From the NCBI RefSeq assembly GCF_003013715.1, contig NC_072815.1, positions 806,001-870,000 on the forward strand: DNA of 64,000 bases, written 5' to 3'. Made by a program: the position numbers and the translations under genes. The notes beneath the pieces were generated by a model, which was given only the letters and a program-made list of their open reading frames with translations, was not told the origin of the DNA and did no database searches. Every line of letters starts with the position of its first letter. Position 1 is the first letter of the stretch. This document shows, in pieces, positions 2,184-62,675 of this stretch. This DNA comes from Candidozyma auris (taxonomy: Eukaryota; Ascomycota; Pichiomycetes; Serinales; Metschnikowiaceae).

Positions 2184-2252
2184 ATCGTCGTATCGCTCAC
2201 AATGGCATCGTCGTATCGCTCACAATGGCACCTTCGTAGCGCTCACAATGGC
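2184..2252. repeat. 23-bp tandem repeat, three copies
   Basis: Three adjacent 23-nt units (2184-2206, 2207-2229, 2230-2252), each ending in TCACAATGGC. The first two are identical and the third differs at a few positions. The last unit continues directly into TGCGAAA, so its end forms the recurrent word. Confidence 0.85.
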
Positions 2253-2258
2253 TGCGAA
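2248..2258 (+). promoter_or_regulatory. ATGGYTGCRAA element, GUD1 upstream
   Basis: ATGGCTGCGAA followed by AA, about 475 bp upstream of the GUD1 start and overlapping the end of the 23-bp repeat. The binding factor is unknown. Confidence 0.6.
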
Positions 2259-2917
2259 AAGTAGCATCTAACTCTGGAGTATCACAGATTATGACGTGGT
2301 TGTGAACTTATGGTAAACCTAAGAAAGCCATAGTTTTTGATTTTTCAATATGAACTCAATCAGTTACGATTTTTGCTGTGGTTTTCCCTGGAGTCCAGGA
2401 GAGTCCCTGTGTCAGCATTGTTCATTATATCCGTATGAATCGGGCCTGGTTTTGTAGTCTCGACTGGGGGACATTCACTTTGAGTACATCTGATTTTAGC
2501 TTTCTTGGAGTACACTGAGATATGGAGGGAAATTATCAAACTTGTATGTTGAGGTAGGTGATGCCTGGAGGTGTGCAAGCTAAGCCTAATGTGGCAGGTG
2601 GTACCCCATGAAGTCATCAAAGTGACCCATTTGGGGCATGATGAGAACGGTTTTGATGATTTACGATTTGTCTCAAATAGGATGGCAAATACCTCTTTGG
2701 CTCTTTGCAGCCAGATCAACAAAGCCACCTGTCAAACGTCATCTTCGTCAATCGATTACATACCGCCAAAAAGCGAAGTCATTGAAAGGCGGCGAGAACA
2801 CTGCTACCATCCTACACAGATCTACATATCTTTGCTGGGTATGCAAACTCAATTTGTTTTAAATCCTGATTTATAAAAGTTTAAATTGCCATTCGTCTGG
2901 CAGGTGAAGTGAAAGTC

Positions 2918-3571
2918 TTACAACAAGGCACCAACAACACCGGCGATTACAGCACCGAAGGAGGCTGCCATCATCTTGCCACCATCCTCAAACGAGCTCA
3001 CGCCAGCGGACGAAGAAGCAGCGGCAGAGGAGGAAGTGGCTAAAGTAGAAGATGGGTCAGCGGTGGTCTGGGCGCTGCTAGATGGAGCATCGGAAGAGAC
3101 GAACGAAGAAGCAGCAACGGAAGACTTAGCGGAAGAAGAAGCGGCCTCGGAAGAAGCGGCAGGGGAGGAAGAAGGAGCATCGGAGGTAGCAGCAGCGGAG
3201 GAGGATGGAGCATCGGAAGAGGTAGGATCAGCAGATGAGGAGGCAGCAGATGAGGAGGACGACGGAGAGTCGCTCTGGGAAGAGGAGGAGCTTGAGTCAG
3301 CACCAGAAACGTCGTGGCCTTGCTCCTTGCACGAAGCCGCAAAGGCCTTCTTAGCAGTGTCAGCGTCACCGTCAGGACACTGGCTGTCTAAGCACTTTTC
3401 AACCTCTTCACCAATGGAGGTACAGATACATTCCAAGTCAGCCAAGCTGCTACACTTGGAGTTTTTCTCCACCTGAGCAACACAGGCCAACAAACAAGCT
3501 GGGGGAGTAGCCAAAACCAGGGAGACGGAGGCAGCTAAAGCAGCGATGGTAGTTAATTTCAAGCCGTGCAT
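2918..3571 (-). CDS. SSR1: CFEM-type GPI-anchored cell wall protein
   Basis: A 217-residue secreted wall protein resembling yeast CCW14 and Candida SSR1. A signal peptide covers about residues 1-21 (hydrophobic, ending LATP). It is followed by PPACLLACVAQV, almost identical to Ccw14, and a compact domain with eight cysteines to about residue 85, the CFEM pattern. Residues 90-195 are a Ser/Ala-rich stalk expected to be heavily O-glycosylated. The tail (DGGKMM, then a hydrophobic run ending in GALL) is a plausible GPI-attachment signal. Ccw14 family members are inner-layer wall structural proteins; haem binding known for some CFEM proteins should not be assumed here. An acidic open frame opposite the stalk is a composition artefact. 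A TATA-like TATAATTA lies about 160 bp upstream. Start chosen at the ATG preceding the signal peptide. Confidence 0.88.
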   Translation of the reverse strand: MHGLKLTTIAALAASVSLVLATPPACLLACVAQVEKNSKCSSLADLECICTSIGEEVEKCLDSQCPDGDADTAKKAFAASCKEQGHDVSGADSSSSSSQSDSPSSSSSAASSSADPTSSDAPSSSAAATSDAPSSSPAASSEAASSSAKSSVAASSFVSSDAPSSSAQTTADPSSTLATSSSAAASSSAGVSSFEDGGKMMAASFGAVIAGVVGALL

Positions 3572-4044
3572 CTTTATTTGGTATCAAACGAAGGAAAAGG
3601 TGGTTGTATGCTTCGAAAAAAAAAAAGACTGATGTTTTGTATAGCCGAAAAGCCTGGCTAGAATCGTGAGGATTGTGATCGATGAATGTTTGGCCAGCTG
3701 TCTGCAGTATGGCCCTTCCAGACTGGGCTAATTATAGCCTAGAGCTTGGCTTTTTCCGCACCAAAGTAAACATGAAATCCATCACGTGGATCGCCTAACA
3801 ACATGCCCTACATACCGATCTATAGTAGAATCAAGCTTGTGCAGGACACCTTGATATCACCAGATTCTATAAGCTTTTGTCTTTAAACCATAAACACGCT
3901 ATTAGAAAAGCTATCTTGCGAAGGAGTCAGGAATAAAGATTGGCAGATAAAGTTTCCCTCACTTGTTTAAATCGTTGACTATGATTACGTGGGTAACCCA
4001 AAATATCAACCTATGGACTGGATTTGCAACCATTGGGGGTATAC
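3572..4044. other. SSR1 promoter and TAG1-like 3' flank
   Basis: No gene. It contains an A-tract close to the SSR1 start, a CACGTG E-box near 3785, a TATAATTA on the minus strand near 3730, and one recurrent word at 4023 close to the neighbouring stop codon. Confidence 0.5.
4023..4033 (-). promoter_or_regulatory. ATGGYTGCRAA element, far SSR1 upstream
   Basis: Plus strand reads TTTGCAACCAT, the reverse orientation. It sits 11 bp beyond the TAG1-like stop and about 450 bp from the SSR1 start. Confidence 0.55.
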
Positions 4045-6972: not shown

Positions 6973-8378
6973 GTCGAAATCAACGTCACTCCACGCGGTC
7001 CCGAAGAAAGCAAGTGTAAAGTGATAGTTGTGTGGTTTTACAGCTCAGCTTGTGTATAGACGAAGCTATTCTTTCGACAAGGATCCAGGTTCACTCGTGA
7101 TTAGTAAAGTTGAATTCGTGAAGTTAACAGTGTCTACCCCAGGAATGCGCGGGTGATGTGCCTATATCCCCTAAAGTGCCACTTGCACCAGGGTCTTCTA
7201 AGGCACTTGTCACAGACTGTTGACAACCATTTTGACTTGAGGATGTTTTCCAGACCTTACTGTACGGTGACTACAGGAATGCTGAGGGGTGATTCTTCCC
7301 TCCCGCTTAGAAGATAGGGTCTATAGGTGGCATTACACAACTAGAAACATTTGGCTGCGAAATGGGTCTGCTTAGTGGTTTGAGGCACCGAACACAACCA
7401 ATTTCCTAATTTCCAACAGATATGTAGTTGTTTTTTATTAGGCCCACTTATCACTTTCTAATTCATGTCAGAGGCTCTCCTTATGTTACAAATATACGTT
7501 GTCTTTGAAGGCTCCATTAGAACTTTACCTTTCTTTCTACATCGGTTCACGTAAACTTACAAGCAAAGCTACCAGTAAAAACCTCTAAATAAGGGAGGTT
7601 CTAGGGATAAGAGAATAGCTTCTAACGCAACAGTGGTATCGAATTAAGATTTGGAGAATATCAAAACTTTCTTCAAAGGAATTTTCTGCAGCTTCTTTTG
7701 TCCGTAGTCGTTTTACTTAAAGGACTCCACTGAGCCCATCGACCCATTTACGAAGTCTCCACTACCTTCTTCCAGCTTCGTTTATCCTCTAACGTTGATG
7801 AGCTTAATTGCTTCTTGGCATCCTCTTACCTTCTACGAGACCATCTCATCGAAGCTTATCTGTAGGCCATGACGAGTTCGAAGTAGGCCTGCCTCTTGTG
7901 CTTCATTGACTGTATGCTGGTTGCAATTGTGCAAGGCCTACAGGTTTTTTGCAACCATTTGAAAGATGCGAAATAAGTCCTGGTACCTAAGGATATATTA
8001 TAGTCATACAAACAAAGAACAATAAAAAGAAGCAGGTAGAGTCACGAATCGTTGCTCTTGAAGCAAGATAGCATGAATTAGAATAAAAAAAGATGTGGTC
8101 GATCGAGGGCAACGTGTGTGGAAGCAACAGGCCCGCTGCCGTAGCCCTGACAGCGTATGGTACAATAAGGTCTTGAAAGTTCTCTGTATCGGCGCTGGGG
8201 TTGTCAAGGCTCAAGACGTGACTGGCGAGATGGTTTTCATTATCTTTTTTTTTTTTTTTTTTTGTTTTTATTTTTGGCGCAATTTTTTTTTTTCAAGATT
8301 TTTTATTTTTTTTCTGATTTGTGATGGCACATCTCCCGTCACGCCCTGATCCTTGACAGGACCACCCCACGAAGCCAC
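6973..8378. other. Gene-free 1.4 kb, TAG1-like promoter and RBF1 3' flank
   Basis: No supported ORF. The left half should hold the TAG1-like promoter. Near 8245-8263 is a run of 19 T followed by further T-rich blocks to about 8315, some 65-135 nt past the RBF1-like stop codon. Recurrent words lie at 7948 (perfect) and 7351 (TTGGCTGCGAA, one mismatch). Confidence 0.5.
7948..7958 (-). promoter_or_regulatory. ATGGYTGCRAA element between TAG1-like and RBF1-like genes
   Basis: Plus strand reads TTTGCAACCAT after extra T residues. It is almost 1 kb upstream of the TAG1-like start and 420 bp beyond the RBF1-like stop. Confidence 0.55.
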
Positions 8379-9620
8379 TTAGTGCACATGACCATGGGCA
8401 TGATCATGTTGTTGAACACTGGGGTCCACATTTGGATCTACACTGTCAATGTTGGGGTCCACGGGTGGGTTCAGCAAGCTGTGGTTACCTGGGGCAGCTT
8501 CCATAGCAGCAATGACCGCCACATCCTGAACAGATGGGTGGTTGCCATCATCGTGATGGTGCTGGCCATGGTGAGCATGGTGCTGTTGCTGTTGAAGATG
8601 GTGAAGCTGCTGCTGCTGTTGCTGTTGAAGGTAGTGCTGCTGCTGGAGAAGCTGGTGGTCGTGAAGCAGAGCATCAGGGTAACCTGCCACGGCAGCCACA
8701 GCGGCAGCGGTACCGTTGGTAGTACGGTTCAACGGCTTTTCGACCAAAGTTCTGGTGTATTTAGCTCTCTTCTTTTTTCCGCCGCCACCTGTGGTGAAGT
8801 TTGGCTCAGGAGGATGATTGTGAGCTGGGTGAATCATTCTCAAAATCCACATTTCCAGGTCTTTCTTGTCGTCCTCCCCAGGGTAACCTTCAAATTCAGC
8901 CTCCTTCTTCATTTTCTTTGCCTTATCTTTGTCAGGAGGGTATAAGTTGGCAACCAATCTGTATCCACACTTGGATCTCTTAGTGTACGCAACTCTCTGT
9001 CTCTTGCTTGCATCTTTAACGGTAGTTCTGAAGGAACCAGAACGTTCACACTGGAAGTACACAGCCTTTGGCTTGGAAGAGTTGATGACAATTTTACACT
9101 GCTCCTCCTCGTTCAACACAGTCTTCACATACTTGACAAGTTCCTGCTTCGACGAGAAGGTCTTGATGATGTCACCTTCTCCGTGTCTTGACACGAGAAA
9201 CCCATTTCCTTCAAACTCTATCAGCGCCGTAGGAAACTGGTGCTGCTGCATGTGTTGCTGCTGTTGCAAATGGTGTTGAGGAATATGGTGCTGCTGCTGC
9301 AATGGGTGCATCTGGTGAAGCTGAGGGTGGTGCTGGTGATGCAATTGATGCTGGTGGTGCAATTGCTGCTGTTGCAACTGCTGCTGTTGTTGCAACTGAG
9401 CAGCCGCTGCTGCATTAAGACCCATGTAACGAGCTTCCTCGTCTGTATGAGCCATCACCGGGTTGGGAATTTCGTGACCCAACGCAATAGCGGCGGCGGT
9501 GGTGTGGTCCAACTGGGACGCGTGGTGAAGGTGCTGTTGTTGCAAATGCTGTTGCTGGTGAGGAGCTAAACCTTGACCGTGGCCAGTGGATCTTTCGTTG
9601 GAAGTAGAAGGACCCGACAT
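8379..9620 (-). CDS. RBF1: RBF1-like transcription factor, poly-Q/His
   Basis: A 413-residue protein with a compact basic/Cys-containing domain at about residues 128-265 (ALIEFEGNGFLVSRHGEGD to the HNHPPEPN histidines). This resembles FAR1/WRKY-GCM1-type DNA-binding folds: a CERSG segment, a CGYRLVANLY segment, then HPAHNHPP as probable zinc ligands. It is flanked by Gln/His tracts (about 40-125 and 310-375). The layout and the domain match my memory of Candida albicans Rbf1, the RPG-box-binding factor, which is nuclear and affects yeast-hypha growth. The start is placed at ATG 9618-9620 (MSGPSTSNE), because the upstream frame has no ATG start and encodes Lys/Asn runs from an A-rich leader typical of yeast 5' UTRs. 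The long 1.85 kb upstream region and two recurrent words suggest complex control. The family is a memory-based call; a DNA-binding role is well supported. Confidence 0.65.
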   Translation of the reverse strand: MSGPSTSNERSTGHGQGLAPHQQQHLQQQHLHHASQLDHTTAAAIALGHEIPNPVMAHTDEEARYMGLNAAAAAQLQQQQQLQQQQLHHQHQLHHQHHPQLHQMHPLQQQHHIPQHHLQQQQHMQQHQFPTALIEFEGNGFLVSRHGEGDIIKTFSSKQELVKYVKTVLNEEEQCKIVINSSKPKAVYFQCERSGSFRTTVKDASKRQRVAYTKRSKCGYRLVANLYPPDKDKAKKMKKEAEFEGYPGEDDKKDLEMWILRMIHPAHNHPPEPNFTTGGGGKKKRAKYTRTLVEKPLNRTTNGTAAAVAAVAGYPDALLHDHQLLQQQHYLQQQQQQQLHHLQQQQHHAHHGQHHHDDGNHPSVQDVAVIAAMEAAPGNHSLLNPPVDPNIDSVDPNVDPSVQQHDHAHGHVH

Positions 9621-10566: not shown

Positions 10567-10577
10567 ATGGTTGCAAA
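10567..10577 (+). promoter_or_regulatory. ATGGYTGCRAA element, RBF1-RAV2 region
   Basis: ATGGTTGCAAA, mid-way in the divergent intergenic region, about 950 bp from the RBF1-like start. Confidence 0.6.
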
Positions 10578-11204: not shown

Positions 11205-11215
11205 TTTGCAACCAT
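11205..11215 (-). promoter_or_regulatory. ATGGYTGCRAA element, RAV2 promoter
   Basis: Plus strand TTTGCAACCAT, 260 bp upstream of the RAV2 start. Confidence 0.6.
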
Positions 11216-20969: not shown

Positions 20970-21702
20970 TTTGGGTAGTTTGAGGTGTGAGCGGGATGGG
21001 AATGTGATATAGGTCTTCAGAATTAGACGCACTTATGCGCAGGACAAAACCCGACAGACTTAAACGGTCGGAAACCTAGAAGGAGGCTTTGGCTTGCGCC
21101 ACCTAAATAATATCCGAAGAGCAAAAGAGCACACGAACAGCGTTAAGGTGCACATCTTTATCCTTCGTGGTTTCTTCACATGAAAAGGTCTCATTTGGCC
21201 AGCTGCTCAGCTGACTTTTTGATCCGCGGTGCTGGTGCCTTGCATTGCTGCCAGCGCGGCTCAAAAGAATGAGACCGACGAATTGTTCCGCCTATTTAGG
21301 AAATATTGCTTGTGAATGTTCTAGACAATGAAGCTTTCCTTTCATCGCTCGAATGACTCTGGAAGCTTTGTTCTTTCGAGCGATGCTGTCTATGGATATC
21401 TTCTTATCGACAACTTGATTCTGGACATATCGTTGCTGCGCTTTCGCTTATGCTGCTGTCAAACGTCACCTTCGCTCACTCGAAAAATAAAAAAGCAACG
21501 CATTCGCAGCCATTTGGCTAGTCCCATGCTGCGACATAACTCCCACCCACCAACCCCACACTTGTCGCCACCACCACTCTTATTCCGCTTCCGATATCGT
21601 TTTTTGCCATTCTCTTGTAGACACGTGTTATCAGTCCGACACAGCATCCTGCCGTGAAACCGTTTTCGCGGAACCCAAGCCCTCTTACTATTGAAGTTGC
21701 TC
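20970..21702. other. Intergenic region between CSR1 and NUP1
   Basis: A 733-bp stretch upstream of CSR1 and downstream of NUP1. No supported gene. It contains one recurrent word near the NUP1 side. Confidence 0.45.
21503..21513 (-). promoter_or_regulatory. ATGGYTGCRAA element, CSR1-NUP1 gap
   Basis: Plus strand TTCGCAGCCAT. It is 190 bp beyond the NUP1 stop and about 535 bp upstream of CSR1. Confidence 0.55.
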
Positions 21703-31054: not shown

Positions 31055-31262
31055 ATTAAAAAACGTGTTTCTGGGAGTTGGCTACTTTCCGGTCTATATC
31101 TAAGTTCTTGTTTCAAAGTGCTGCCCCGTGCTTGTTTGGTTAAGACACGACCATCAAAAAATGTCGTAGGAACAAGCCAAAAAAGTCGAAAATATCATTC
31201 AAGGGGCCGGAGTATGAATTGAAATAATAAAACATTGCTTAGGCAGTTTTAACAAAAAGAAG

Positions 31263-31987: not shown

Positions 31988-31998
31988 ATGGCTGCAAA
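31988..31998 (+). promoter_or_regulatory. ATGGYTGCRAA element, right of tRNA-Tyr
   Basis: ATGGCTGCAAA with further A residues. It is 580 bp past the secreted-protein stop and not obviously in a promoter unless an unseen transcript starts here. Confidence 0.5.
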
Positions 31999-34602: not shown

Positions 34603-35780
34603 GTTGGTTTTGGTTACAAGATCTCGGACAATTGAGCTTATATATGGTGAATGCAGTGAAAACAAATGATGTTTTTCACACCCAATACTCCGAACTTTCC
34701 CGTCTTCCTGATGCCAGGGGCTTGCAGGCATGGTTGCGAAATCTACTATGCATACTCCAGAGATGATGAATTACGAAGGTAGCTCGACACTACACTGAAT
34801 GGTGTAGAAGCTGCTCATGATACGCCAAATGATGCTTCCACACTACCAAAATAGACGGTCCGAAACTCAATTGGCTATTCTTTAGCCAAGGAGGTGGGGT
34901 TCATTGGAAGAGCCCTAATTGTGGCTTCTTCCGAGATAAAGCACGGAGAATAAGTTAGTGGCAAACAATTTCACGCTAAGGGCCGTGAGAATTCCAAAGC
35001 CTTGACTTAGAAGCCTTGCGTGGACGCTAGGTACGTACGGTGAGGGACAGTTTCGGAAAAATGACGGGAAGTTCGAGAAGTGATCAAATTTGGAAGGAAG
35101 CGTAAAAAGTGTTATTTGTTTGCGTCATTGTGTCCAACTGGCTAATATTGTATTCTTTTTCCTCTTTTTACCTCCAATTGTAGGCTGTGTATTCGTATCG
35201 GTTGGGCTCAGTGCACATTTCGCAGCTATGTAGGGTATGAAGTCTTTTGGATGATGTGCTCCAAAGAGTCAACAAGAGTAGCATAGAAGATATAAGCCAC
35301 CAATGTTTGCACCATTGATGACTATGAGACCATCCAAAGCAGTCGCTGTTCTAGTCCATTGACGCATGAAAACTCGGATGAAGATTGGCAACCCCTGCAG
35401 CGCACGCATTTCGTAACTGTAACGGTTTGAGCGAAAAGTTCTGATCAGTCAGTATAGTATTCTCCGATTAGCTTCGCTAATTCGTAGGCATTCGCAGCTG
35501 TGTGTAACTCATGATCGAGTCGTTGTCGATATTAGTCTATCGATCGCAGCGAAAACATCTCTCCTACATTTCTGCCAACAAATCGAAGTCTGAGCTGGTG
35601 TCTTAACAATTACATCCTTAGAGACTCGAAAGGCATCATGACCTATAAAATTTTAAGAATCATTGCTTAGTTCTCTGTGATAATGTCTGTATTTCACAAG
35701 TAGGTGGAACCCTCGGAGTGCATACACGTGCAACATATAGAAAAAATTATCACCACAGTAGTTCAACAATCAAAGGAAAC
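34603..35780. other. Divergent oxidoreductase / MRP2 intergenic region
   Basis: About 1.2 kb, no gene. One perfect recurrent word (34730) and one imperfect (35219, TTCGCAGCTAT). No tRNA or TATA of note. Confidence 0.45.
34730..34740 (+). promoter_or_regulatory. ATGGYTGCRAA element, oxidoreductase promoter
   Basis: ATGGTTGCGAA, 128 bp upstream of the oxidoreductase start. It is one of the closest to a start codon. Confidence 0.6.
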
Positions 35781-36128: not shown

Positions 36129-36315
36129 ACGAGAGGTGATGATTTGACAATTGTACATAGTAATAGAACGGACAGGGAAATCGATGTAGATGAGCGAGTG
36201 GAGGGAGAGGTTCTTGGTGATATTCCAGAGGGAATGTGAGTTTGACGCTTAGAGATGATGCTGATGAAGAAAATGCGATTATGAGACGTACTCGAGAAGG
36301 GTCAAGAAGCAGTGA

Positions 36316-36345
36316 GCCCAAGTTAGCAGGGCCCAAGTTAGCAGG
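36316..36345. repeat. 15-bp direct repeat
   Basis: Two adjacent copies of GCCCAAGTTAGCAGG (36316-36330 and 36331-36345). Confidence 0.85.
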
Positions 36346-37473
36346 CCCCAGCATGGGCATGCTAAGTAACCGAAAGAAACGAACTCTCTATATTCCTACA
36401 GTATCCAGATCACAAAGTCAAACATCCATGTACTGGGCAAATCTAAATGTGAAACATTTAAAATGCCAAGCTGGGCCTAAGACATTCGATCTGGGAAAGG
36501 GTTGTCAGCCTCTTGGCTTCAGGGAGCCTACTAAAGAACCGTGAACCCTACGAAGGCTCTTTGAACCCTTAAACGTCTCCCTAAAAGTATAAGTAAAATC
36601 CGATCTTTCTGTGACTACTCCATGTATTTCCCTCTAGGTATTACCAATCCACCATAGCAAGAGCCAGTGTATAACTTCCGAGTGCTCCGAGACTCTCGAC
36701 TCTCGACTCTTACCCATGGACTCTGTCCCCTTGAGAATCTCACAAACTTCATCATGACCGACCGTCCCTGATAAGTACACAGATCAAAACAAATAAACTT
36801 TAACATTCCATTACATCATCCTACGTGAAGGTTACCAGTGCCAGACTAGTGGAGAATTTCGCAGCCAGTAGCCAAGGCCCTTTGTGGGAATTTCGCAGCA
36901 GCCCGAGCGCCATGGCCAGCAGCGGCACCAGCGTCCCAACCCTAAATTATCTAATTCAACACCACAACACCCCCAGATCAGATAACTACGCAGGCCTTGC
37001 ACCCTTCCTCCCTCCAGCCATTTTTCCAGGTTGCAATTTGCAATCTTAACCTCCCACTCTAGCACCTCTTTCAGCCCGGTTGGACCCAACATTGGCTGTG
37101 GGGCCTCCATGACGCAGAGTGGTCGCCCGCGGTGTGGAGAGCGGTACGGCAAAAAGTAGGTGCGCGGAAACGGTGGGAGGGTGGGTGACCGCAACGCTGC
37201 ACCAGCGACAAAACCCACCCACCACTAGAGGTGTAGAAGCTCATAGAACAGTGACTGTGCAATTGAGCAGCAGCGATCACAGCAAGCAAGCCCAAGGGAA
37301 AGGCAATGGCCCACTAAAAGTAAATAAGAAAGTCTGCAGGAGTTAATGTTGGACGCCGTAGTAGCACCCTGTTTGCAGCCAAGGTACACTTCTCACTGGC
37401 GAGTGCCGCGATTACTCTGGCTGTCTGCGGTTGGACAGCTCCAGGACGATAGGGGCTGCCTTGAAAGAAAAAA

Positions 37474-37501
37474 CGAGAAGCGAGAAGCGAGAAGCGAGAA
37501 T
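37474..37501. repeat. 7-bp tandem repeat CGAGAAG
   Basis: Four tandem units of CGAGAAG, the last ending T instead of G. Probable slippage microsatellite. Confidence 0.85.
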
Positions 37502-38225
37502 CTCACCCTCCAACGGCGGGACCCGCCGGAAGTATAATTCCCGTGGGACGTGGGTACGTTTCTAATTCACTCCTTCAACAAGCTCCAAGGCTTTTCTAAA
37601 TTTTCTGTCCCCTTCGCTAATCGTCTGGCGTTGGCGGGTCTTATCATGAGCACCTCGTCTATCTGGATTATCGCACTGGCCCACTTATCGTCACTGGCCC
37701 CGTGGCCGCGCTGAGAGCCACACCCAACCGAAACGTAGCATCTCTACGCTGACTACTTTGTCTACACTGACAACAATAACTACCTTCACTACGCTGACTT
37801 CGTTTCGATGGCACCTGGCCATGACAAAATGCAACGTCATGGGGAACTAAAATGGAGACCCAACTTCTTGTTTTTCCTCTGGGGGGGTCCCCTCGCACCT
37901 GGGGGGGCCTCTTGCATCCATTTTTCCCGCGCCGTGAGTGGCCCCATCGCTAATTTTCCCTCCATGCAGCCATTGTGCGCCCCAGGGCCTCACTCTCGGC
38001 TCCTCTGGCGCCCATCTCGCTCGGCTCATATAACTCGCCGACCGCCCTGCTTTGTTTCCCCTACACCTCAACAACACTCAAGTAAACCCATTCACATCCA
38101 TCAGCGTTTCGTGCTTGATCCTTCTATTCTTATTTTTTAAATCTTATCGTCCATATTCCTTCAAATTCGTCTTTGCTAGCACCGCCTAGCCCATGCTACA
38201 TACTTAAAATCTCCATCGTCCACCT

Positions 38226-39929
38226 ATGCTCGTTCACAGAAAACAACAGGGCCCCAAGCTCGATAAGCCCAACCGCTTCAACTTGGGCGGCCTCATCAAG
38301 AGGAAAATCTCGTGGAAGCGCTCCATAGACGGTTCCATGGGCTCGCTCGACTCTTTTGCTCCTCCCCAGCACAAACTACCGGACCAGCAACCGCTGCCCG
38401 CCACCCACAACCACTACTATACGGTTGATTGCCATCACGACGCCTCCCTGGCGCCTCATTACTCACTCACGGCTGCTAACGGCCACTATACCCATCTTTC
38501 TCCTGCTCACGACACCTACTGCTCCACAGCAGAGTGCATCTCGTTGCAAAACAGTGACATCACCTCTCACCACGGTGATGACGATGATGACGGCAAGATA
38601 GACGAGTTCGACAGCCTTTGCAAAGTCGACGATTTCAACAACTTGGCTGAGCCTTTGGTCGATGAGCTGCCGTCTTTTGACCCCAAGAATGAGGAAAATA
38701 TCTCAGAGTACAAGATAGGCGGCTACTGTCCCATCAAGATTGGTGACCACTTCTGCTCAGATAAGTGCCGCTACAAGGTGCTTCGAAAGCTTGGCTGGGG
38801 CCACTTTTCCACAGTTTGGCTTGCCATCAGCCTGGAGGGGTCGTATGTTGCTTTGAAAGTGGTGAAGTCAGGTAAGAACTACTCCGAAGCTGCCATAGAC
38901 GAAATCAAGATTCTCAAGACGCTTCAGAAGGGAAAAACGTCTTCTGTTGACAGCGTCGTCTCCTTGCTAGACTCCTTTGAGGTGACCACGCCGCTGGGCA
39001 CTCACGTTGCAATGGTGTTTGAACTCATGGGCGAAAACATGTTGCATCTAATCTACAAAAAGAAAGCTGAACGCTACTCCTTAAAGATGATTCAGCAGCC
39101 CTTGCCTCCGGCAGTTGTCCCATTGCACATGGCTAAACTGATCATTCTTCAGCTTCTCCAGTCGGTGGACTACATGCATCGCAACGGTGTAATTCACACC
39201 GATATCAAGCCGGAGAATGTGCTCATGACTTACGAGGGTCTGATCCCAGACTCTGTTCGTGCTGCGAAGCCAACTCCTACCTTCCGCATTCTTCCATCGA
39301 GACCTTTGGCGATGTCCTTGGAGGAGATGTGCTCTTGCCCAATGAGAGTCAAAATTGCCGACTTGGGCAATGCCACCTACTCAAAGAACCATTTTTCTGA
39401 CTACATCCAAACTCGTCAGTATCGCTCGCCTGAAATATTGCTAAAGCACAAGACTTGGGGTGCTTCTGCTGACGTGTGGCTGATTGGCTGCTTGATCTTT
39501 GAGCTCATCACCGGTGATTTCCTCTTCGATCCTCATGACGGCGCGACTTTCACTAAGGATGAAGACCATATGGCTCAGATCATCGAGCTCCTCGGAGAAT
39601 TCCCTTCAGTGAAGTATTTGAGCAACTGCCTGAGGGCCACTGAGTTGTTTTCTACACCTACCACCTTGAGAAACATTCGCTCCCTCAAGTACTGGAGTTT
39701 GGAGGACGTCTTGATAGAGAAGTATAAGTTTTCTCCTGACGACGAGAACGTCATCTTGATAGGTGACTTGATTCGCAAATGCTTGAAGTACGATCTCGAT
39801 GATCGTTACGACTGTGCTTCTCTCATGAAGCACCCTTGGTTTTCGTCCAATCCGCAATGGGACGAGGCGGCTTTGAGAGCTTTGCCTAATAATAATACCG
39901 AGATTCCCGGCTTCACTCACGAGGAGTAG
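38226..39929 (+). CDS. SKY1: SR-protein kinase
   Basis: A 567-residue SRPK-family serine kinase resembling yeast Sky1, which phosphorylates the RS-type shuttling factor Npl3 and affects mRNA export and ion/polyamine homeostasis. The first 160 residues are low complexity. The catalytic domain starts EYKIGGYCPIKIGDHF (SRPK hallmark) and RKLGWGHFSTVWLA (residues 188-200). Catalytic Lys is near 211 (VALKVV), HTDIKPEN holds Asp326 in the HRD position, and ADLG (Asp379) stands in for the DFG. A spacer of about 40 residues lies between them, shorter than the 742-residue yeast protein. The domain ends DRYDCASLMKHPWF. The first in-frame ATG is used. The gene converges on CWC27, 134 bp apart. Confidence 0.87.
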   Translation: MLVHRKQQGPKLDKPNRFNLGGLIKRKISWKRSIDGSMGSLDSFAPPQHKLPDQQPLPATHNHYYTVDCHHDASLAPHYSLTAANGHYTHLSPAHDTYCSTAECISLQNSDITSHHGDDDDDGKIDEFDSLCKVDDFNNLAEPLVDELPSFDPKNEENISEYKIGGYCPIKIGDHFCSDKCRYKVLRKLGWGHFSTVWLAISLEGSYVALKVVKSGKNYSEAAIDEIKILKTLQKGKTSSVDSVVSLLDSFEVTTPLGTHVAMVFELMGENMLHLIYKKKAERYSLKMIQQPLPPAVVPLHMAKLIILQLLQSVDYMHRNGVIHTDIKPENVLMTYEGLIPDSVRAAKPTPTFRILPSRPLAMSLEEMCSCPMRVKIADLGNATYSKNHFSDYIQTRQYRSPEILLKHKTWGASADVWLIGCLIFELITGDFLFDPHDGATFTKDEDHMAQIIELLGEFPSVKYLSNCLRATELFSTPTTLRNIRSLKYWSLEDVLIEKYKFSPDDENVILIGDLIRKCLKYDLDDRYDCASLMKHPWFSSNPQWDEAALRALPNNNTEIPGFTHEE

Positions 39930-41032: not shown

Positions 41033-41507
41033 CGCTGAACTGGAAAATATGGGATGGTGTGGTAGTTGTGGGGAAAATTTCGCAGCTTGTATATGTTGCT
41101 AGAAAGGCTCCTAAAGAAGGTGTACGAATTCGACAGACCTTGAAACAAGGAAACCGTAAATGTTGCCTTTGTCAAAATACTCAGAAATACTTACTGCAGA
41201 GCAAATTGTCATTTTAGTACGCTTTTCGCAAGTGGTTTATGGTTGCAAATTGCTGAGTGGTGTGTGCATACATACCAAGTAACTAGGGACATTTAAAGCA
41301 TACCACATCTTTCACTTTTGTGAGTTCTTAGTGAATCCCATGAAATATTCCCTTGAATATATCCTGATTCTCTTCTTTCCTTGACTCAGTTTATACAGCT
41401 ACTAGTTGGCTTCGCCGTGTCCACACCCGTGCACCACCGCATACCATAACACCAAGTTTTCACCACCTCATAGTACTAAAGCCAACTTACAGCTTGACCA
41501 AATCACC
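41033..41507. other. Divergent CWC27 / APL4 intergenic region
   Basis: 475 bp. Contains one perfect recurrent word and a weaker one at 41079 (TTCGCAGCTTG). No TATA close to either start. Confidence 0.5.
41239..41249 (+). promoter_or_regulatory. ATGGYTGCRAA element, CWC27/APL4
   Basis: ATGGTTGCAAA, 207 bp from CWC27 and 269 bp from APL4, near the middle of this divergent promoter. Confidence 0.6.
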
Positions 41508-44648: not shown

Positions 44649-45280
44649 GATTTGATAAAGAAATGTGTTGGAGAAGGGTAACCAGCGTTGCTAATCGTGG
44701 GAAATGTTGCCGAGGCTATGCAGGTACGCTGTCACATGACATAATCTGGCCTCACACGAGGCCAATCGTAGAAGCAATATAAAGGAGATGGATAAATATT
44801 CGAATAATCTCAAAAAGTTTTCAATAAGTAGGAGGATTCATCATTCTCCAGATTGCAACTAGGTAAATGTGTTGACACAGGGAAATACTCTAGGGGAGGA
44901 GAGCCATTGTGCAGGCGTGGACTTTTGCCGACAAAACCTCAATGTGAAATGTATAGAAGGGGTGGAATAGGAGAGGTGTCGATGGTCAAATGTTGACAAA
45001 GGAGATATTGCAAGAATTGAGAATTTCTTGATATCTCATCTCAAGATCTTAACTTTCTTTGAGTTATTGTAAATTGGGTTGCATTCGGGAAGGCAAGATA
45101 GGCAGTGGGGCAGACGCATTAGGGTATTTTTGCAACCATTAAAGCCAAAGCGACCGTACTGGACTGCCACAACGCGTCAGCCTGAACATTCACCTCAATA
45201 ATCCTTTTTTCTTTGTCTATTGGTACTCCCTATTTACCACATCCTGTCATGCCATAACGCTAGAATTGTGAGAAGCCAAA
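44649..45280. other. YOP1 promoter and RRP14 3' flank
   Basis: About 630 bp with no gene; holds one recurrent word at 45129. Confidence 0.45.
45129..45139 (-). promoter_or_regulatory. ATGGYTGCRAA element, YOP1-RRP14 gap
   Basis: Plus strand TTTGCAACCAT, 480 bp upstream of YOP1 and 150 bp downstream of the RRP14 stop. Orientation and place do not favour either gene. Confidence 0.55.
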
Positions 45281-46824: not shown

Positions 46825-46835
46825 ATGGCTGCAAA
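46825..46835 (+). promoter_or_regulatory. ATGGYTGCRAA element, RRP14 side
   Basis: ATGGCTGCAAA, 251 bp upstream of the RRP14 start. Confidence 0.6.
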
Positions 46836-47701: not shown

Positions 47702-47712
47702 ATGGCTGCGAA
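47702..47712 (+). promoter_or_regulatory. ATGGYTGCRAA element, VMA5 side
   Basis: ATGGCTGCGAA, 270 bp upstream of the VMA5 start and oriented towards it. Confidence 0.6.
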
Positions 47713-49275: not shown

Positions 49276-49880
49276 ATGTACGGAGGCTTTGCTCACTACA
49301 AAAAACATAAAGCATATGACAGAAAATGCCTGCATATAAATAAACTCGCGCTCGCTCAAAGTTCATTAGTACCCTTTGCAATCAAAAAAAAATGCAAATA
49401 AAGGACGTATTCATCTAAAAAAAAGAAAATAAAAAGTTGCAAATAATGAGCCTTTCATTCCGGAGATTGAGGTTACTGATAAGGTGATACCAGTCACCAC
49501 TGGATTAGCTTGAAGTCTAAACCATGATCTTGATCTCAGTGGTTTGCGATACTCGTGAGAAAATGGCTGCGAAAAATATAGGTTACCAGCGGCACCTATT
49601 ATCGACCCCCCCCCCTCTTTCAAGCTCCAGGCTGATTCCACCAGGAGAGCTCTTGGAATGCTTTTGTAGTGTCATTAACAAAATCATCCCGATTTGTCGT
49701 TTTGTGCTCCCACTTTGTGAACTCTTGAGGTTCTTCCGTTTTTGCGCTGCAATGTGGCTTAACTACCACGACCAGCCAGCAACCAGCACTGTTGCAATTT
49801 GCTAAAACATAAAGTAGAACTTTCGCCATCTATAATTTTCGCTCTCTCGATCCTCCCAATAGACATTCCCTTCGCTAAGC
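49276..49880. other. Aspartyl protease upstream region
   Basis: About 600 bp with A-tracts, a C-run at 49607-49615, one recurrent word at 49563. No gene. Confidence 0.5.
49563..49573 (+). promoter_or_regulatory. ATGGYTGCRAA element, aspartyl protease promoter
   Basis: ATGGCTGCGAA plus AA, 318 bp upstream of the protease start. Confidence 0.6.
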
Positions 49881-51026
49881 ATGCTCCTTTTGCTTCCAAT
49901 TCTCGCTATTGCCACGGCGTTGCCGTTTGCAGCCATACAGCAGACTCCACACCCATTACCTCTTGAGTTCAGTATATCGAGAAGTTTTGACACAGATTCT
50001 CCATTTTGGAACCTCGAATTTTTCAAGAAACTCAGTCTGAAACTTCTTTCCAAAAGGTATCAGTCTGCGCTGCTTTCCAACCATAACAACGTTAACTACT
50101 GGCTTGACATCTTCTTGGGTCCTGGAAACCAAAAAATTACAGTATCCTTGGACACGGGCCTGTCAGATCTTTGGGTGTATGGACCCAACGTGTCAAGCTC
50201 CTCTGGTGGCACATTTGATCCAGAAGCCGCTGGAAGCACTCCCCTCAATGAGTCCTTCAGCATCTCGTACTTAGACGGAACAGGTGCACAGGGCGATTTC
50301 TACAAGGACGATTTTTCCTTGCTGGCTCTGAAGGGCCTTTTAAAAGATTTCCAATTTGCCGTCGTAGACCAGGCAAAATTCAATGGCCCTGGTATTCTCG
50401 GAGTATCGAGCAGAGAAGTGGAAACGACTGCAAACAAGTACAACAACTTGCCCTTCGCTTTGCAAAAGGCCGGAATCACAGAAAGAGCAAGCTACTCTCT
50501 ATACTTGGGATCTCTGGCCGGCAGTAAGGGCACCATCATCTTTGGCGGTATTGATAAGAATAAGTATGAGGGAGAATTGGTGAAATACAATATTCCAGGA
50601 AACGACGCAGCCCTAGCTCTCAATGTGGTCTCTTCTTCAATCTCAGGCAATGTCTATAATCAGACAACGAAGTATCTTTTGGATTCAGGAACGTCATGGA
50701 ATTTGTGGCCCGAGGAATTATTTCAGTACACCGTTCAGGCCTTGAATGCTACTGAAGAAAACGGTTTGTACATCGTCGAGTGCAATCAGCCCACCGACAA
50801 ATTCTTGGAGTTTAACTTCGGACAAAACGACGTGAAAGTCTCTTACAAGAATCTTCTTGTTGAGTGGAATGGTAAATGCTTGCTCGGAGCCCAACCAGGA
50901 CAGAACACCTTCATTCTTGGAGATGTTTTCTTACGTAGTGCGTACGTCTACTACGACCTAAGCAACAGAACAATTTCTGTAGCTCAGTTCAAAGACTCAT
51001 CTACCTCAGACATTATATCGTTTTGA
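49881..51026 (+). CDS. Secreted aspartyl protease (pepsin family)
   Basis: A 381-residue A1-family protease. Signal peptide at about 1-14; a propeptide ends at Lys58-Arg59 (a Kex2-type site). The first catalytic motif is Asp91-Thr-Gly-x-Ser-Asp-Leu-Trp, where residue 94 is encoded by CTG at 50160-50162. Read as Ser it gives the expected DTGSSDLWV. The second catalytic Asp is 268 (LDSGTS). Two cysteines near residues 300-335 (ECNQP and GKCLLG) form the usual C-lobe disulphide, and IFGGIDKNKYEGEL is characteristic of fungal members. No GPI signal, so probably secreted like Candida SAPs, although a yapsin-like relationship is possible. It cleaves external proteins at acidic pH. Family members are linked to nutrient acquisition and, in pathogens, to virulence; no such role can be claimed from the sequence. 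Confidence 0.88.
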   Translation: MLLLLPILAIATALPFAAIQQTPHPLPLEFSISRSFDTDSPFWNLEFFKKLSLKLLSKRYQSALLSNHNNVNYWLDIFLGPGNQKITVSLDTGLSDLWVYGPNVSSSSGGTFDPEAAGSTPLNESFSISYLDGTGAQGDFYKDDFSLLALKGLLKDFQFAVVDQAKFNGPGILGVSSREVETTANKYNNLPFALQKAGITERASYSLYLGSLAGSKGTIIFGGIDKNKYEGELVKYNIPGNDAALALNVVSSSISGNVYNQTTKYLLDSGTSWNLWPEELFQYTVQALNATEENGLYIVECNQPTDKFLEFNFGQNDVKVSYKNLLVEWNGKCLLGAQPGQNTFILGDVFLRSAYVYYDLSNRTISVAQFKDSSTSDIISF

Positions 51027-53848: not shown

Positions 53849-53859
53849 ATGGCTGCGAA
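53849..53859 (+). promoter_or_regulatory. ATGGYTGCRAA element, after CSN2
   Basis: ATGGCTGCGAA, only 44 bp past the CSN2 stop and about 990 bp upstream of the permease. Confidence 0.55.
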
Positions 53860-54773
53860 ATTGCAAGACGACTACCTCAGCTGAATGATAACGCCATTGC
53901 TCGGATACTCCCAAAAACACCAGATAAAGGGAGCCCCGGAAGCCAAAAGCAGCTCATATCATCAGAACAAACAAATGAAACAATCATCGGCATGGACTTT
54001 GAAGTCCATGAGCGTCAAAATGAGGAGCTTGTCAAAAGATGCCCTAGGCGAGACTGCCATTGATACTGCAGATTTGGGAGGTTCTCGATGAGCGCGCCGG
54101 AAAAAGATTTCCTTCGTGCCACCGTTTCCTACTCACCTTCTTTCCAGGACTATTGTCAAAGGTACGTTTACGAAATTCGTGGAAAAATGATTATTCAAAT
54201 TTGCGTTATCGTCATGATGCTGGCAGCCACGGCTAGCCTTCAAAGGAAATCAACCAACACCCCTATGAGAGCCACGAACAAAAATTACAAAATCTTCAAC
54301 GTTATACTAACCCACAAGCGAGGTCTCAGACGACCACAAGACGGGCCTGGCTGCAAAATGAAACAAAGGCATTTTTTGTAAGGCAATTTTCCTCCCCTCC
54401 CTCAGACAAAAGCCAGATTGGGTCCCAAGGCGCCATATTGTGAAGGAATTCTGGCGCGGAAACCTCATTTCATCTCTTTAGCCCTGGGAGGGGTGCATAA
54501 AACGGCTGACAATTATAGGGCACTAACCTGGCGGCTTCGTATTTTAGCCCCCCACAGCTGGCCCCCGCTCCAAGAAATCTTGAAAGCGGGTGGTAATTTC
54601 CTAGGAATGTGCTTTTGGGTGGGCGCCGCTGGCCCTCGTGCGGCAATTGAGACTCTCTCAGTGGAACAGTGTGGAGGAAGCCTAGTGTGTGGGAGACTGT
54701 CAATGGGGGTTGTTGTACCTTAACCCCAGATTTTACGTTTGGCAGGCGTGCAGGAGATATCGAGCGAGTCTCT

Positions 54774-54847: not shown

Positions 54848-54858
54848 ATGGCTGCAAA
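54848..54858 (+). promoter_or_regulatory. ATGGYTGCRAA match at permease start codon
   Basis: ATGGCTGCAAA coincides with the first codons (Met-Ala-Ala). Probably coding coincidence, since ATG-GCT-GCA is a good start context. Confidence 0.25.
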
Positions 54859-56837: not shown

Positions 56838-57704
56838 GTTATTGTAATGAGAAAAGGGACTACCAAGATGAGAAGTACAAATGGTAGACACATCTTCGGT
56901 CAAAAAATTTTCTTAAAAATACCATGTAGTAAGAGTTGTACTCATCTATGAACTTAGAGCAGTTAAATGTCATTCAAGCGGTTTCAGCCCTATAAAAGGA
57001 CTTTAAGCAGCCACTTCAAATAAGTGGTCAAAATATTCACAATTATTGGCCAATGCAGCAGAACCGAAGAGGTTTTTATTGGAATTGAATTTTGTAGCAT
57101 CAAAAGGGGTTCTCAAAGCTCGAAATGTCCTTTTGCAGCCATTCTATTCTTCCAGTTTATTGTTGTATGAAGTAGACTCAGACAATCCTTAAGAGGTTTT
57201 TACTTAACGAGCATCAAAATGTTCAATAAAAATAAAATAACAAAGAAGATAAAAGTAAAAAAAAAGAAATCTGGAGTTGCAGAAGCCTTTCTCGTGATGT
57301 TAACAGATAGTGTTCTGTATTCCTCGACCAGACCACAGTTGCAACGATGCACACACATGACCCATCGAAAAATTATGCCTTTTTTTAAGCGTTATATTTG
57401 GATGCCACGAGTCTAGACGCTGAGTGATGGTGGTGTCCAAATTGTTGTTGCACCCTCCTCCCCAGGCTGTACTGAGATCCATCATGGAAAAGTGTCTTTA
57501 TAGACACAGACAATAACAGGGCTCAATTTCACAGATGCATAATTTCATTAACACCAGCAAGGCCAAAATCTCCTTCCTGATAATGCCAGCTCCTTACGCT
57601 GGTGTCTGGTGCCTGAAGATGCCCATTTTGCAGCCGTTTCCTGAAGACTCCTTCATTTCCCCCAGGCGCGATTTCTCCTCCAACAACCGCCACCTCCTCC
57701 TCAC
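56838..57704. other. MGT1 upstream region
   Basis: About 870 bp, A/T-rich around 57219-57260. One perfect recurrent word (57132) and one imperfect (57627, TTTGCAGCCGT, 68 bp before the ATG). No supported gene. Confidence 0.5.
57132..57142 (-). promoter_or_regulatory. ATGGYTGCRAA element, MGT1 upstream
   Basis: Plus strand TTTGCAGCCAT, 560 bp upstream of MGT1. Confidence 0.55.
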
Positions 57705-58304
57705 ATGAACTCTCGACTTTTCTACGTCCATGTGCCGCTGCCCCTAGGCAGTGCTCTCGTAGTTTTCGACACAGAAGGCACCGCTGACAAGAAAGGCACT
57801 GTTGTGTATGTTGCAATTGGCGAGTGGCACAGTCTTGTGGCGACGATGAAGCGAGATTTCCACAAGTTGGGTGTTTGCCCCAGGGCAAAAAAGCTGGCAG
57901 GAAATCGGGCGCGGGCGAGCGCCGTCGCTGACATTGCCGCTTTCCTCGCCTCCCCAACTGAAGCACACAGACAAGAAATCAGCCACAAATATTTGTTTGG
58001 AACAAAACTTCAGCAGCGGGTTTGGCGCGAGATTGAAGCGATTCCGCCGGGAAAAAGCGTCACTTACACGCAATTGGCAGCGAGAGTTGGCTTGGGGCCT
58101 CTGCTGGCGCGAGTGGTTGCAAATGCGGTTGGCGCGAACAGACTAGCGGTGGTGGTTCCGTGCCATCGCGTGAAGCGCAGCGATGGAGGCGATGGAGGGT
58201 TCAGGTGGGGCCTCCAGATCAGGAGGCTGTTGATCGAGAGAGAGAAGGTGCTTTTGAGGGAAGGGGAAACGGAGAAAACGAAGGTGGAAGGTGAGAAAAC
58301 GTAG
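57705..58304 (+). CDS. MGT1: O6-alkylguanine-DNA alkyltransferase
   Basis: A 199-residue suicide DNA-repair enzyme (yeast Mgt1 188). The acceptor Cys153 is in VVPCHRVKRSD, followed by GGFRWGLQIRRLLIERE, the guanine-pocket helix. The ATG at 57705 is first in frame. Codons 133-134 are CTG CTG (58101-58106); read as Ser-Ser they give GPSSARVVANAVGANRLAVV, which fits the family's conserved SARAVG-A-xxN helix, while Leu-Leu does not. The N-terminal half is diverged. The C-terminal tail (about 180-199) is Lys/Glu-rich and poorly conserved. Acts in the nucleus, repairing O6-methylguanine. Confidence 0.9.
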   Translation: MNSRLFYVHVPLPLGSALVVFDTEGTADKKGTVVYVAIGEWHSLVATMKRDFHKLGVCPRAKKLAGNRARASAVADIAAFLASPTEAHRQEISHKYLFGTKLQQRVWREIEAIPPGKSVTYTQLAARVGLGPLLARVVANAVGANRLAVVVPCHRVKRSDGGDGGFRWGLQIRRLLIEREKVLLREGETEKTKVEGEKT

Positions 58305-58658
58305 GTGGAAATGGATGGGCTCGATAGGGGACGGCTGGCACTGGCTAAGGTGGAAGTTGCGGCACCGTTTTAGGTTGCACTCCTATTACTGAGCAGAAAG
58401 TGCAAGAATGAGTAGGGCAGCAGCGACGGTACTTAAAGTCAGCCCTGGGAGGTGATTCTGCTCTGGGTTCATTTTTTTTGCTTCTCCTGCTTGCCTCTCT
58501 TGCTTGTTTCTACTGCTTGCCGCTACTGCTTTCTTCCACTGCCTACGGACTTTTTCGCAGCCATTGGTGATGCTGCCCTACGGCGCTTGCCAGCGCTACT
58601 TACAATACTGTGGAAGCAGATTTTATTAGCGTTCGAATTCCAGCACTATATGCTTCTT
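58305..58658. other. Convergent gap after MGT1
   Basis: 354 bp between two converging genes, with one perfect recurrent word, which is unusual because no promoter is expected here. Confidence 0.45.
58554..58564 (-). promoter_or_regulatory. ATGGYTGCRAA element in convergent gap
   Basis: Plus strand TTCGCAGCCAT preceded by several T. It is 94 bp from the end of the broken regulator-like gene and 250 bp beyond MGT1. Confidence 0.5.
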
Positions 58659-60563: not shown

Positions 60564-60968
60564 TCAACCTGAGGCTTTTGCAAAACGTGCTCTCACATGG
60601 CCAGGCACCGCCAACACCGGTGACTCGTACTTTGCAAGAAACTCCTCTAAGCTCTCGCTGTCCATCTCTCTGACGAGCTGGCGCTCGATGTCCCGGTTAG
60701 CATTCACCTTATTCTTCAAAATCGGCTGGGGCAACGTAGCACACTGGCGACGACGCCACCACCGCAAGCGATGTTTTGGGCCTTTTGGCAAAGGATAGCT
60801 CGGTTCCTCTGGAATGTTGTCAACAGCTGGGTCGATGCAAAGAGGCAGGTCGACAAAGCCCACGAGCAGGACTTTGTTGTAGCACGGCGCAGAGGGGGCA
60901 GAGTCGAGCTTGGAGAAGTTGTTGAGGTGGCACTCGACCCAAACTTCCCAGGAAAGTAGGCCTGTCAT
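60564..60968 (-). CDS. Hypothetical protein
   Basis: A 134-residue protein from ATG 60966-60968. It begins MTGLLSWEVWVECHLNNFSKLD and includes KHRLRWWRRRQ, a basic tryptophan cluster at about 70-80, and a C-terminal helix with MDSESLEEFLAKYESPVLAVPG. No membrane segment or signal peptide. The mix of residues looks coding, and the frame is open upstream with hydrophobic residues but no ATG, so the start is reasonable. No family recognised. The partner gene on the same strand is the broken regulator-like gene. Confidence 0.5.
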   Translation of the reverse strand: MTGLLSWEVWVECHLNNFSKLDSAPSAPCYNKVLLVGFVDLPLCIDPAVDNIPEEPSYPLPKGPKHRLRWWRRRQCATLPQPILKNKVNANRDIERQLVREMDSESLEEFLAKYESPVLAVPGHVRARFAKASG

Positions 60969-61040: not shown

Positions 61041-61051
61041 ATGGTTGCAAA
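61041..61051 (+). promoter_or_regulatory. ATGGYTGCRAA element, hypothetical gene promoter
   Basis: ATGGTTGCAAA, only 73 bp upstream of the hypothetical-protein start (60968). Confidence 0.6.
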
Positions 61052-62191
61052 TTCTGGCATACAGTTGCGGCACGATGCATGGGAGACTTTGTCACAGACA
61101 AGGTATATGGGAAGAAATGAATGAATCATCGGTTTGGTAGAAGAAAAAGTGATTTCCAGCATCTAGAGGGAAACGTAAGGTCTGAGGTCGAGAAAGGTTT
61201 GGTCGAATTGAGGGTGTTTGTCGATTTTGTGAAGTCTACCTTCACTGCGACTCACCAGAGTCGATGAGATGGAAGGATGACACGATATCTCAGCGGTACT
61301 GCTTTCAGCTGAGTAAATGTCGAATTAGAGGGTTGCCGATACCAAGTCTTGATTGACTCTGTGTTATCAGTGCTATGGTGGTTTGTAACTCCGAGAGCGC
61401 AAACCGTCAAGGAAACGCAAATGAGGCATCAGGCAGCAAGCAGCTAAGAGAGCCAAACAAGCCCATCCAACAAAGCAGGTTCAAATGGAGGGAACTTGAA
61501 ATATCATTTAGGTGCTGATTCTACCGTTGAAAGCTCAATTTCTCCGGCTGTCCCCTCTTTGTCGAACAGTGTCAGGAAATCTGCGCCAGACGTTGCCAGA
61601 GAATGCACAGCGGCTTTCTTCCCTAGGAGAAAGGACCGTCAAGGAAGCCATAGAAGTGATTCATGTTCCGCAAAATGATACCTCCTTGACGAGTCCTTGG
61701 ACGTTGGCTGCCAGCGTTATTGTGTCACTTTTGCAAATGCATGCCACTCCTTGTATCCTGTTCAACAGACCCTTACTTATACAATCCTAAAAGCATGTGC
61801 TGGAAGCGTGTAGCTTTACTTTGGTTACAAAGACTATTTGTCATTTTCGACTTGGACTCCAGTCGATATATGCCACCGATTTTGCAGCCAACTGGCGGTG
61901 GTGATTTAACAGCGTCGTCAAAATTCTCTTGATTCCACACCCTACTAAGTATTTCTACAGAGTCAGCCATAATTTACATCCTCATAGTCACATAACAATG
62001 ACAATATCCAACAATGACACAGTTACCAATCATTCACTAGCTTGCCTGGTCTATTTTTCTCTACTCCCTCTCACAGTATCACCTTCAGCGCTCTCAGGCA
62101 GGAGCCTATGCCCATCTACACTAACATTCACTATTTCATGGCAACGATCCCAATTAGATATATTCCAGGAGTTCGCACGCATGAAGATGGA

Positions 62192-62247
62192 TATTGCCAG
62201 CAATGTATCGCCAGCAATTTATCGCCAGCAACGTATCGTCGACAGTG
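62192..62247. repeat. 14-bp minisatellite, four units
   Basis: Four head-to-tail units of TATCGCCAGCAAYG type (62192, 62206, 62220, 62234). The first has T for C at position 4 and the fourth is diverged. Ends abut TTTCGCCAGG, a degenerate fifth. Confidence 0.85.
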
Positions 62248-62664
62248 TTTCGCCAGGTCCACTATCAAGAGCCTGAGGCGGTTCGCAGCAGGCTGACTGT
62301 GCCTCACCAAAGGCATCTAGGCCTCACAAAAGTAAGATTGCAATTCCATTTTTTTTTATTCTTCTTCTGGTTTGTTTTCTTTTTTGCTCTGCAACCCTGA
62401 ATCACATCTTGGTATCTACAATGGCTAAGGCGGTGGGCTGGCGCAGACAATAGTCTTGGCTTCCTTGTGCGAGCTAGAACGCCCTTGATGAAACAAGACA
62501 GAATGGAAGAGGCACAAAAAGCAGAAGAATGGAGGCCAAAAAGTAGACAAAAAAAAAGGATATTGATAGAGGCAAACAACGGAAATGGAAAGGTTAAGAA
62601 GGCTGGTTTTTTTTTGTTTTGATAAGTGGCAAATTTGCTTTTTCTTTCTTCCAGGTGTAAACGG

Positions 62665-62675
62665 TTTGCAGCCAT
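62665..62675 (-). promoter_or_regulatory. ATGGYTGCRAA element, edge-gene upstream
   Basis: Plus strand TTTGCAGCCAT, about 770 bp upstream of the edge gene. Confidence 0.55.

Follow-up and report, generated by a model that had tools for sequence, protein, structure and literature searches.

An abundant intergenic word of Candida auris as a putative site for a general regulatory factor

General regulatory factors have been compared across yeasts in a nucleosome study that treats Cbf1, Reb1, Abf1 and the CACGAC word, and that study describes their repertoires as differing between lineages (PMC2897762). Work on gene control in Candida auris often starts from motifs of Saccharomyces and C. albicans. 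In the current study, we describe a different word, ATGGYTGCRAA, whose 9-base core, GGYTGCRAA, stands some 3200 copies above background in the C. auris genome (12,249,773 bases in seven contigs). The word was followed from the window in which it had been noticed (C4:806001-870000; "the window" is this whole 64-kb stretch) to a second long piece outside it (C1:300001-500000, 200 kb; 264 kb with the window), and to the genome as a whole. We think it likely that ATGGYTGCRAA is the site of one abundant, sequence-specific general regulatory factor, and we leave the binder open in that proposal. If so, the way in which promoters are built in a major pathogen would become easier to understand.

The DNA itself shows the motif, how abundant it is, its preference for intergenic positions and its independence from a number of known motifs. 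An earlier note on the window had listed 18 copies in non-coding DNA; all 18 coordinates carry exact ATGGYTGCRAA on one strand, and 16 of them lie outside open reading frames (ORFs) of at least 100 codons, which serve as genes here unless otherwise stated, the other two (21503 and 62665) falling in short, probably spurious ORFs. Altogether the window holds 20 exact copies, 11 on the forward and 9 on the reverse strand, in agreement with the claim that either orientation is used, compared with a mean of 0.25 and a maximum of 2 in 100 dinucleotide shuffles. With up to one mismatch, 34 copies are found (14 with exactly one) against 5.9 expected. The note had also proposed a genome-wide count against a control, and with the same word reversed as control the excess is confirmed: 1396 exact copies (713 + 683) vs 11 (7 + 4), 4233 vs 567 with up to one mismatch, and 3482 vs 298 for the core. 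The window is itself rich in the exact word, with 20 copies where the genome mean predicts about 7, and the C1 piece carries 9 in 200 kb. Word-rich and word-poor stretches alternate along C1, where the variance-to-mean ratio per 100 kb is 2.2 (149 places of two fully listed variants).

With its flanks, the consensus reads A-ATGGYTGCRAA-A-W, a non-palindromic element of roughly 13 bp. Among 58 exact sites, which come from the window, the C1 piece and other loci that were in part fetched because of the word, an A precedes the 11-mer in 42 and follows it in 42, after which comes a weak A/T preference; beyond about 14 bp the flanks are random. The core columns are strict, with 45 consensus cores in intergenic DNA vs 0-10 per substituted base. 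Y and R vary together, as the earlier note had claimed from the window: the T/A, C/G, T/G and C/A variants number 246, 574, 50 and 526 genome-wide (the last by subtraction from 1396), for a Fisher odds ratio of 5.4 (p 2e-29).

The bias towards intergenic over coding DNA, which it had been suggested to look for, is present in both pieces. In the window, 16 exact copies lie in 21 kb of intergenic DNA vs 4 in 43 kb of ORFs (8.0-fold), and the core is 8.3-fold denser between ORFs (25 vs 6); in the C1 piece, which had not been seen before, the corresponding figures are 5 in 49 kb vs 4 in 151 kb for the exact word (p 0.045) and 20 vs 14 for the core (4.4-fold, p 2e-5). The reversed core gives 0 intergenic vs 1 ORF copy in the window and 0 vs 3 in the C1 piece. 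When only genes of at least 150 codons are considered, 23 exact copies are intergenic and 6 genic over both pieces, and several of the ORF copies either lie no more than about 100 bp from the first ATG of an ORF or belong to short ORFs of doubtful status. Among 9-mers with at least 8 occurrences in the pooled intergenic DNA (70 kb) of the two pieces, those derived from the word top everything but poly(A), led by GCTGCGAAA (15 observed vs 0.74 expected), GGCTGCAAA (15 vs 0.83) and GGTTGCAAA (14 vs 0.96); taken by itself, the C1 piece still places GGCTGCAAA ahead of every other 9-mer apart from A-tracts (7 vs 0.56). The next clear intergenic 8-mer motif in the 264 kb is the Cbf1-like CACGTGAC (10 vs 1.3 expected).

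Known motifs, including those of Reb1, Abf1, Tbf1, CACGAC, Rsc3, PAC, RRPE and Mbp1, were counted in the same 264 kb (70 kb intergenic, 194 kb ORFs). Besides the word, A-runs, CGCGCG (12 vs 0), CACGTG (30 vs 20) and AAAATTTT (16 vs 10) are clearly richer between ORFs. The earlier note had not recognised the word as a Reb1 or Rpn4 site, and it matches neither. It lacks the TTACCCG of Reb1/Nsi1, itself not enriched with 2 occurrences in the intergenic DNA, and it lacks the Abf1 site RTCRY-N5-ACG, found 12 times between ORFs vs 21 for its reverse. The PACE-type word GGYGGCRAAA occurs 108 times genome-wide vs 103 reversed, that is, at background, so Rpn4 was rejected as the main binder. The telomeric site of Rap1 was rejected as well, the word being absent from the telomere repeat at contig ends. 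Beyond the telomere repeats of several contigs (ends L077, L081, L084-L087) lies a shared GCAATACGTA...GAACGAAG-like stretch, which we take to resemble leftover nanopore adapter and which is probably an assembly artefact. The telomere repeat found at most contig ends is the one published for Candida auris, with seven chromosomes (PMC11465752). Literature searches with spelled-out forms of the word (among the matches listed) and with degenerate forms yielded no title, judged by title, on such a fungal promoter motif, and the main text of the comparative nucleosome study contains neither pieces of the word nor the name Rbf1 (PMC2897762).

The word is best read as a general-regulatory-factor site, given the genome-wide excess, the intergenic preference that recurs in the unseen piece, the use of both orientations, the random flanks, the unrelated genes, and the lack of a match to Reb1, Abf1, PACE/Rpn4 or the telomeric repeat. 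An abundant factor would bind single or tandem copies of the word and, once bound, would keep the site free of nucleosomes and the promoter open, which would let gene-specific regulators act. The presence of the word at genes of unrelated function, which the earlier note had claimed and which was borne out at the loci inspected, would be understandable because such a factor would hold sites open for gene-specific regulators.

The relation of the word to gene starts is looser than had been supposed. It had been placed in most upstream regions, at about 70 to 1000 bp from starts; in the window, the 1.5 kb before the start does contain the exact word for 17 of the 27 genes, at distances that actually run from 78 to 1410 bp, and the core for 20 of the 32 ORFs (43 of 130 in both pieces together). 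Relative to genes, TTYGCARCC is on the coding strand in 33 of 51 gene-site pairs less than 700 bp from a start (two-sided p 0.049), a set that includes 14 proteasome genes and counts divergent gaps for both genes. When 20 sites were sampled as every tenth entry of two listings, 10 had one unambiguous neighbouring start and 8 of these 10 pointed the same way. This orientation trend is weak and post hoc. Around the 45 intergenic core sites of the 264 kb, the GC fraction is 0.466 within 50 bp and 0.400 at 50-150 bp, where the null is 0.437 (standard deviation 0.010) and the flanking dip was observed post hoc; the profile resembles what an open promoter might give.

Several observations weigh against a general regulatory factor. 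Core density changes little over the first 1000 bp or so upstream of starts, so the positional bias to start codons that had been anticipated did not appear as any sharp preferred distance, and in the C1 piece the core is upstream of only 23 of 98 ORFs, where the claim about most upstream regions fails. The intergenic density of the exact word there is only 3.9-fold that in ORFs, and the Cbf1-type CACGTGAC ranks above every 8-mer of the word, first after A-tracts; intergenic ratio and k-mer rank are thus both weaker once the window is excluded. Convergent gaps, whose 5.4 kb contain 1 exact site (or 5.7 kb and 2 sites when genes are defined more strictly), are not distinguishably poorer in the word than promoter-containing gaps, as far as some 5.4 kb of convergent DNA can tell, and A/T runs are not enriched near the intergenic core sites of the 264 kb. 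Of the proposal made in the earlier note, then, the excess, the intergenic preference, both orientations and the unrelated genes hold, whereas a sharp distance to starts is missing and most genes of the C1 piece lack the word.

Other explanations account for parts of this pattern. One is that an established factor whose specificity has shifted, namely the Rap1, Reb1/Nsi1, Tbf1 or Aft orthologue, binds the word. The Rap1 site is ATGGGTGY, which ATGGYTGC resembles, and as TTACCCG is not enriched between ORFs, Nsi1 could have moved. The telomere repeat, the presumed Rap1 target, is however devoid of the word, and Myb domains rarely change specificity this much. We regard a shifted factor of this kind as unlikely, also because C. 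albicans Nsi1 uses TTACCCGG (PMC7565893). The binder might instead be Rpn4 or a close C2H2 zinc-finger relative, with the word as a variant proteasome-type element whose regulon has widened. GGYTGCRAA matches GGYGGCRAA at 8 of 9 positions, C. auris Rpn4 binds GGTGGCAAA and GGCGGCAAA (PMC10746192), and the specificity of Rpn4 varies between yeasts (PMC526180). Moreover, if neighbouring genes are disregarded, the 1.2 kb before the start contains the exact word in 4 of the 14 genes of the 20S proteasome and the core in 8; with upstream regions ended at the adjacent gene, however, the core remains at 6 of 14, compared with 43 of 130 other genes. With GGYGGCRAAA at background and G rare at core column 4 in intergenic DNA (4 vs 45 with T), this explanation appears very unlikely. 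Nor do the C2H2 proteins offer an obvious binder: the genome has 78 domain matches, and of 39 stretches fetched, 34 with and 5 without the finger pattern, none of the 34 has helices that obviously spell GGY-TGC-RAA when the recognition code is applied by eye, the ten-finger-match gene C2:597361-598245 and a second C6 copy lying outside this survey. The two C6 genes, at C6:242419-242577 and C6:388210-388368, are two-finger C2H2 genes with identical scores and equal frame length (296 aa), and they seem to have arisen by duplication within a single chromosome; the copy inspected has helices like those of Nrg1.

A role outside transcription, with the word marking replication origins, boundaries, cohesin loader sites or some other chromosome element of that sort, would suit copies that are mostly intergenic, on both strands, not sharply positioned to starts and once in a convergent gap (58554), as well as head-to-tail, directional clusters of the core. 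An excess of about 3200 cores is nevertheless many for the origins of a 12-Mb yeast genome, and the weak orientation trend (33 of 51 pairs) is linked to genes; we consider this quite unlikely. Finally, the copies could be debris of a mobile or tandem repeat without binding function. Of core pairs spaced by 0-25 bp, 58 have both members in the same orientation, compared with 2 and 4 places for the two opposite kinds; an even spread predicts about 13 same-orientation pairs and about 6 of each opposite kind, although intergenic crowding raises all three expectations. A period of 10-12 bp accounts for 32 of the 58 and none has a period of 20-23 bp, so these pairs look like abutting copies rather than helically phased ones; second neighbours in arrays may be missing from the pair listing. 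Some perfect tandem arrays exist, such as the five-copy core arrays with periods of 10 and 11 bp (C3:1751056-1751104 and C7:589214-589266), and part of the close pairs may have been made by tandem duplication. Two different variants are combined in 9 of the 21 period-11 pairs, so these pairs are not all fresh duplications. Against repeat debris, a mere 58 close same-orientation pairs are found for 3482 cores, close copies in opposite orientation are rare, the Y/R coupling is specific, and a dispersed or mobile repeat was rejected for want of shared flanks among the 58 sites, leaving repeat debris scarcely credible.

If a general regulatory factor does bind the word, the leading candidate, put forward tentatively, is encoded in the window itself. 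RBF1 (8379..9620, reverse strand; 413 aa) has homologues in several CTG-clade yeasts that are named Rbf1 or RPG-box-binding factor, and its product is 88% identical to Rbf1 of Candidozyma haemuli var. vulneris. Its upstream region holds one exact word (10567). The full-length model was poor (predicted local distance difference test, pLDDT, 48.8) and the conserved predicted DNA-binding domain (residues 140-275; 8796..9203, reverse strand) was modelled alone; the domain model has a predicted Aft2-like fold, shared with DNA-bound Aft2, WRKY and GCM. C191, C218, H267 and H269 are invariant in 14 Rbf1 sequences, and this conserved Cys and HxH pattern would be expected to bind zinc. A fuller proposal makes Rbf1, a CTG-clade protein of the Aft-like WRKY-GCM1 type, the dominant general regulatory factor of Candida auris: through about 3000 TTYGCARCC sites it would play the role that Reb1 and Abf1 have in Saccharomyces, and it would also control its own promoter. 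This is possible but somewhat more doubtful still. We know of no general regulatory factor of the WRKY-GCM1 fold class. Several points count against Rbf1: the model of the domain reaches only intermediate quality (pLDDT 72.8), the Pfam AFT match falls below the cut-off (E 0.019), the 264 kb show no excess of RPG-type words (CACCCAT 12 vs 10 reversed, ACACCCA 7 vs 8), by our estimate chance would give the likeness of the word to the Aft site for about 1 factor in 20, and the candidacy did not come from an unbiased screen of all transcription factors. Solved structures searched with the Rbf1 sequence gave no DNA-binding relative, the best matches looking driven by polyglutamine; P0048 gave none, and a profile search of genome and viral contig collections with the Rbf1 alignment found no relative. 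If Rbf1 binds the word, other yeasts throughout the CTG clade should carry it as well.

The exact copies in the window comprise four variants. Those reading ATGGCTGCGAA are at 2248..2258 (+), 479 bp upstream of an amidohydrolase gene (362-1774, -); 21503..21513 (-), 539 bp upstream of a CRAL-TRIO gene; 47702..47712 (+), 267 bp upstream of the V-ATPase C gene; 49563..49573 (+), 313 bp upstream of an aspartyl protease gene; 53849..53859 (+), 994 bp upstream of an amino acid permease gene; and 58554..58564 (-), which lies between two convergent genes and has no promoter position. The variant ATGGTTGCAAA occurs at 4023..4033 (-), 457 bp upstream of a CFEM gene; 7948..7958 (-), 981 bp upstream of gene 4045-6972 (-); 11205..11215 (-), 266 bp upstream of a Rogdi-family gene; 45129..45139 (-), 619 bp upstream of a TB2/DP1 gene; and 61041..61051 (+), 78 bp upstream of ORF 60564-60968 (-), and it is also found in two divergent gaps, at 10567..10577 (+), between RBF1 (-952) and the Rogdi-family gene (-904), and at 41239..41249 (+), between cyclophilin (-212) and adaptin (-264) genes. 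Copies of ATGGCTGCAAA are located at 31988..31998 (+), in the long intergenic stretch 30042-32569; 46825..46835 (+), 533 bp upstream of a SURF6 gene; 57132..57142 (-), 568 bp upstream of an alkyltransferase gene; and 62665..62675 (-), 768 bp upstream of an ORF at 63438. Two more, absent from the earlier list, are at 49926..49936 (-), within the aspartyl protease ORF about 45 bp past its first ATG, and at 54848..54858 (+), where the word forms the first codons (first ATG) of the permease ORF, an overlap that may be coincidence. The single ATGGTTGCGAA, at 34730..34740 (+), would be about 130 bp upstream of an ADH-family gene if that gene started at its second Met (Met44); the copy runs into the start of the longest ORF there by two bases.

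One-mismatch copies with an intact core are found on the forward strand at 7351..7361, 54347..54357 and 58113..58123 (within the alkyltransferase ORF), and on the reverse strand at 2704..2714 (first base C), 36858..36868, 37372..37382, 57627..57637 (second base C), 61881..61891 and 62963..62973. Two long stretches, 34740-38226 (about 3.5 kb) and 30042-32569 (about 2.5 kb), lack any ORF of 120 codons; one exact copy and three copies with one mismatch fall within them, and they may harbour non-coding transcripts or genes rich in introns.

Among described elements, the PACE/Rpn4 site GGTGGCAAA is close, as 8 of the 9 core positions of the word agree with GGYGGCRAA; the word differs in having T rather than G at core column 4 and in not being confined to proteasome genes, and PACE-type words are not enriched genome-wide. 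The RPG box has the sequence ACACCCATACATTT, in which CACCCAT matches CARCCAT of the word at 6 of 7 positions; RPG-type words, unlike the present one, show no enrichment. This box is bound by Rbf1 in C. albicans (PMC3904162). The iron-response site of Aft1/Aft2, ANTGCACCC or BRCACCCB, shares GCA.CC with TTYGCARCC in the same register (PMC4161868), whereas one column changes from C to R and the word has thousands of sites at unrelated genes. In sequence, the word is none of the Reb1, Abf1, Rap1, Cbf1 or CACGAC sites, the last being that of C. albicans; in kind, it resembles them, as a specific intergenic word at unrelated genes (PMC2897762), and if it is indeed a general-regulatory-factor site, it would offer a clean case of one such factor replacing others.

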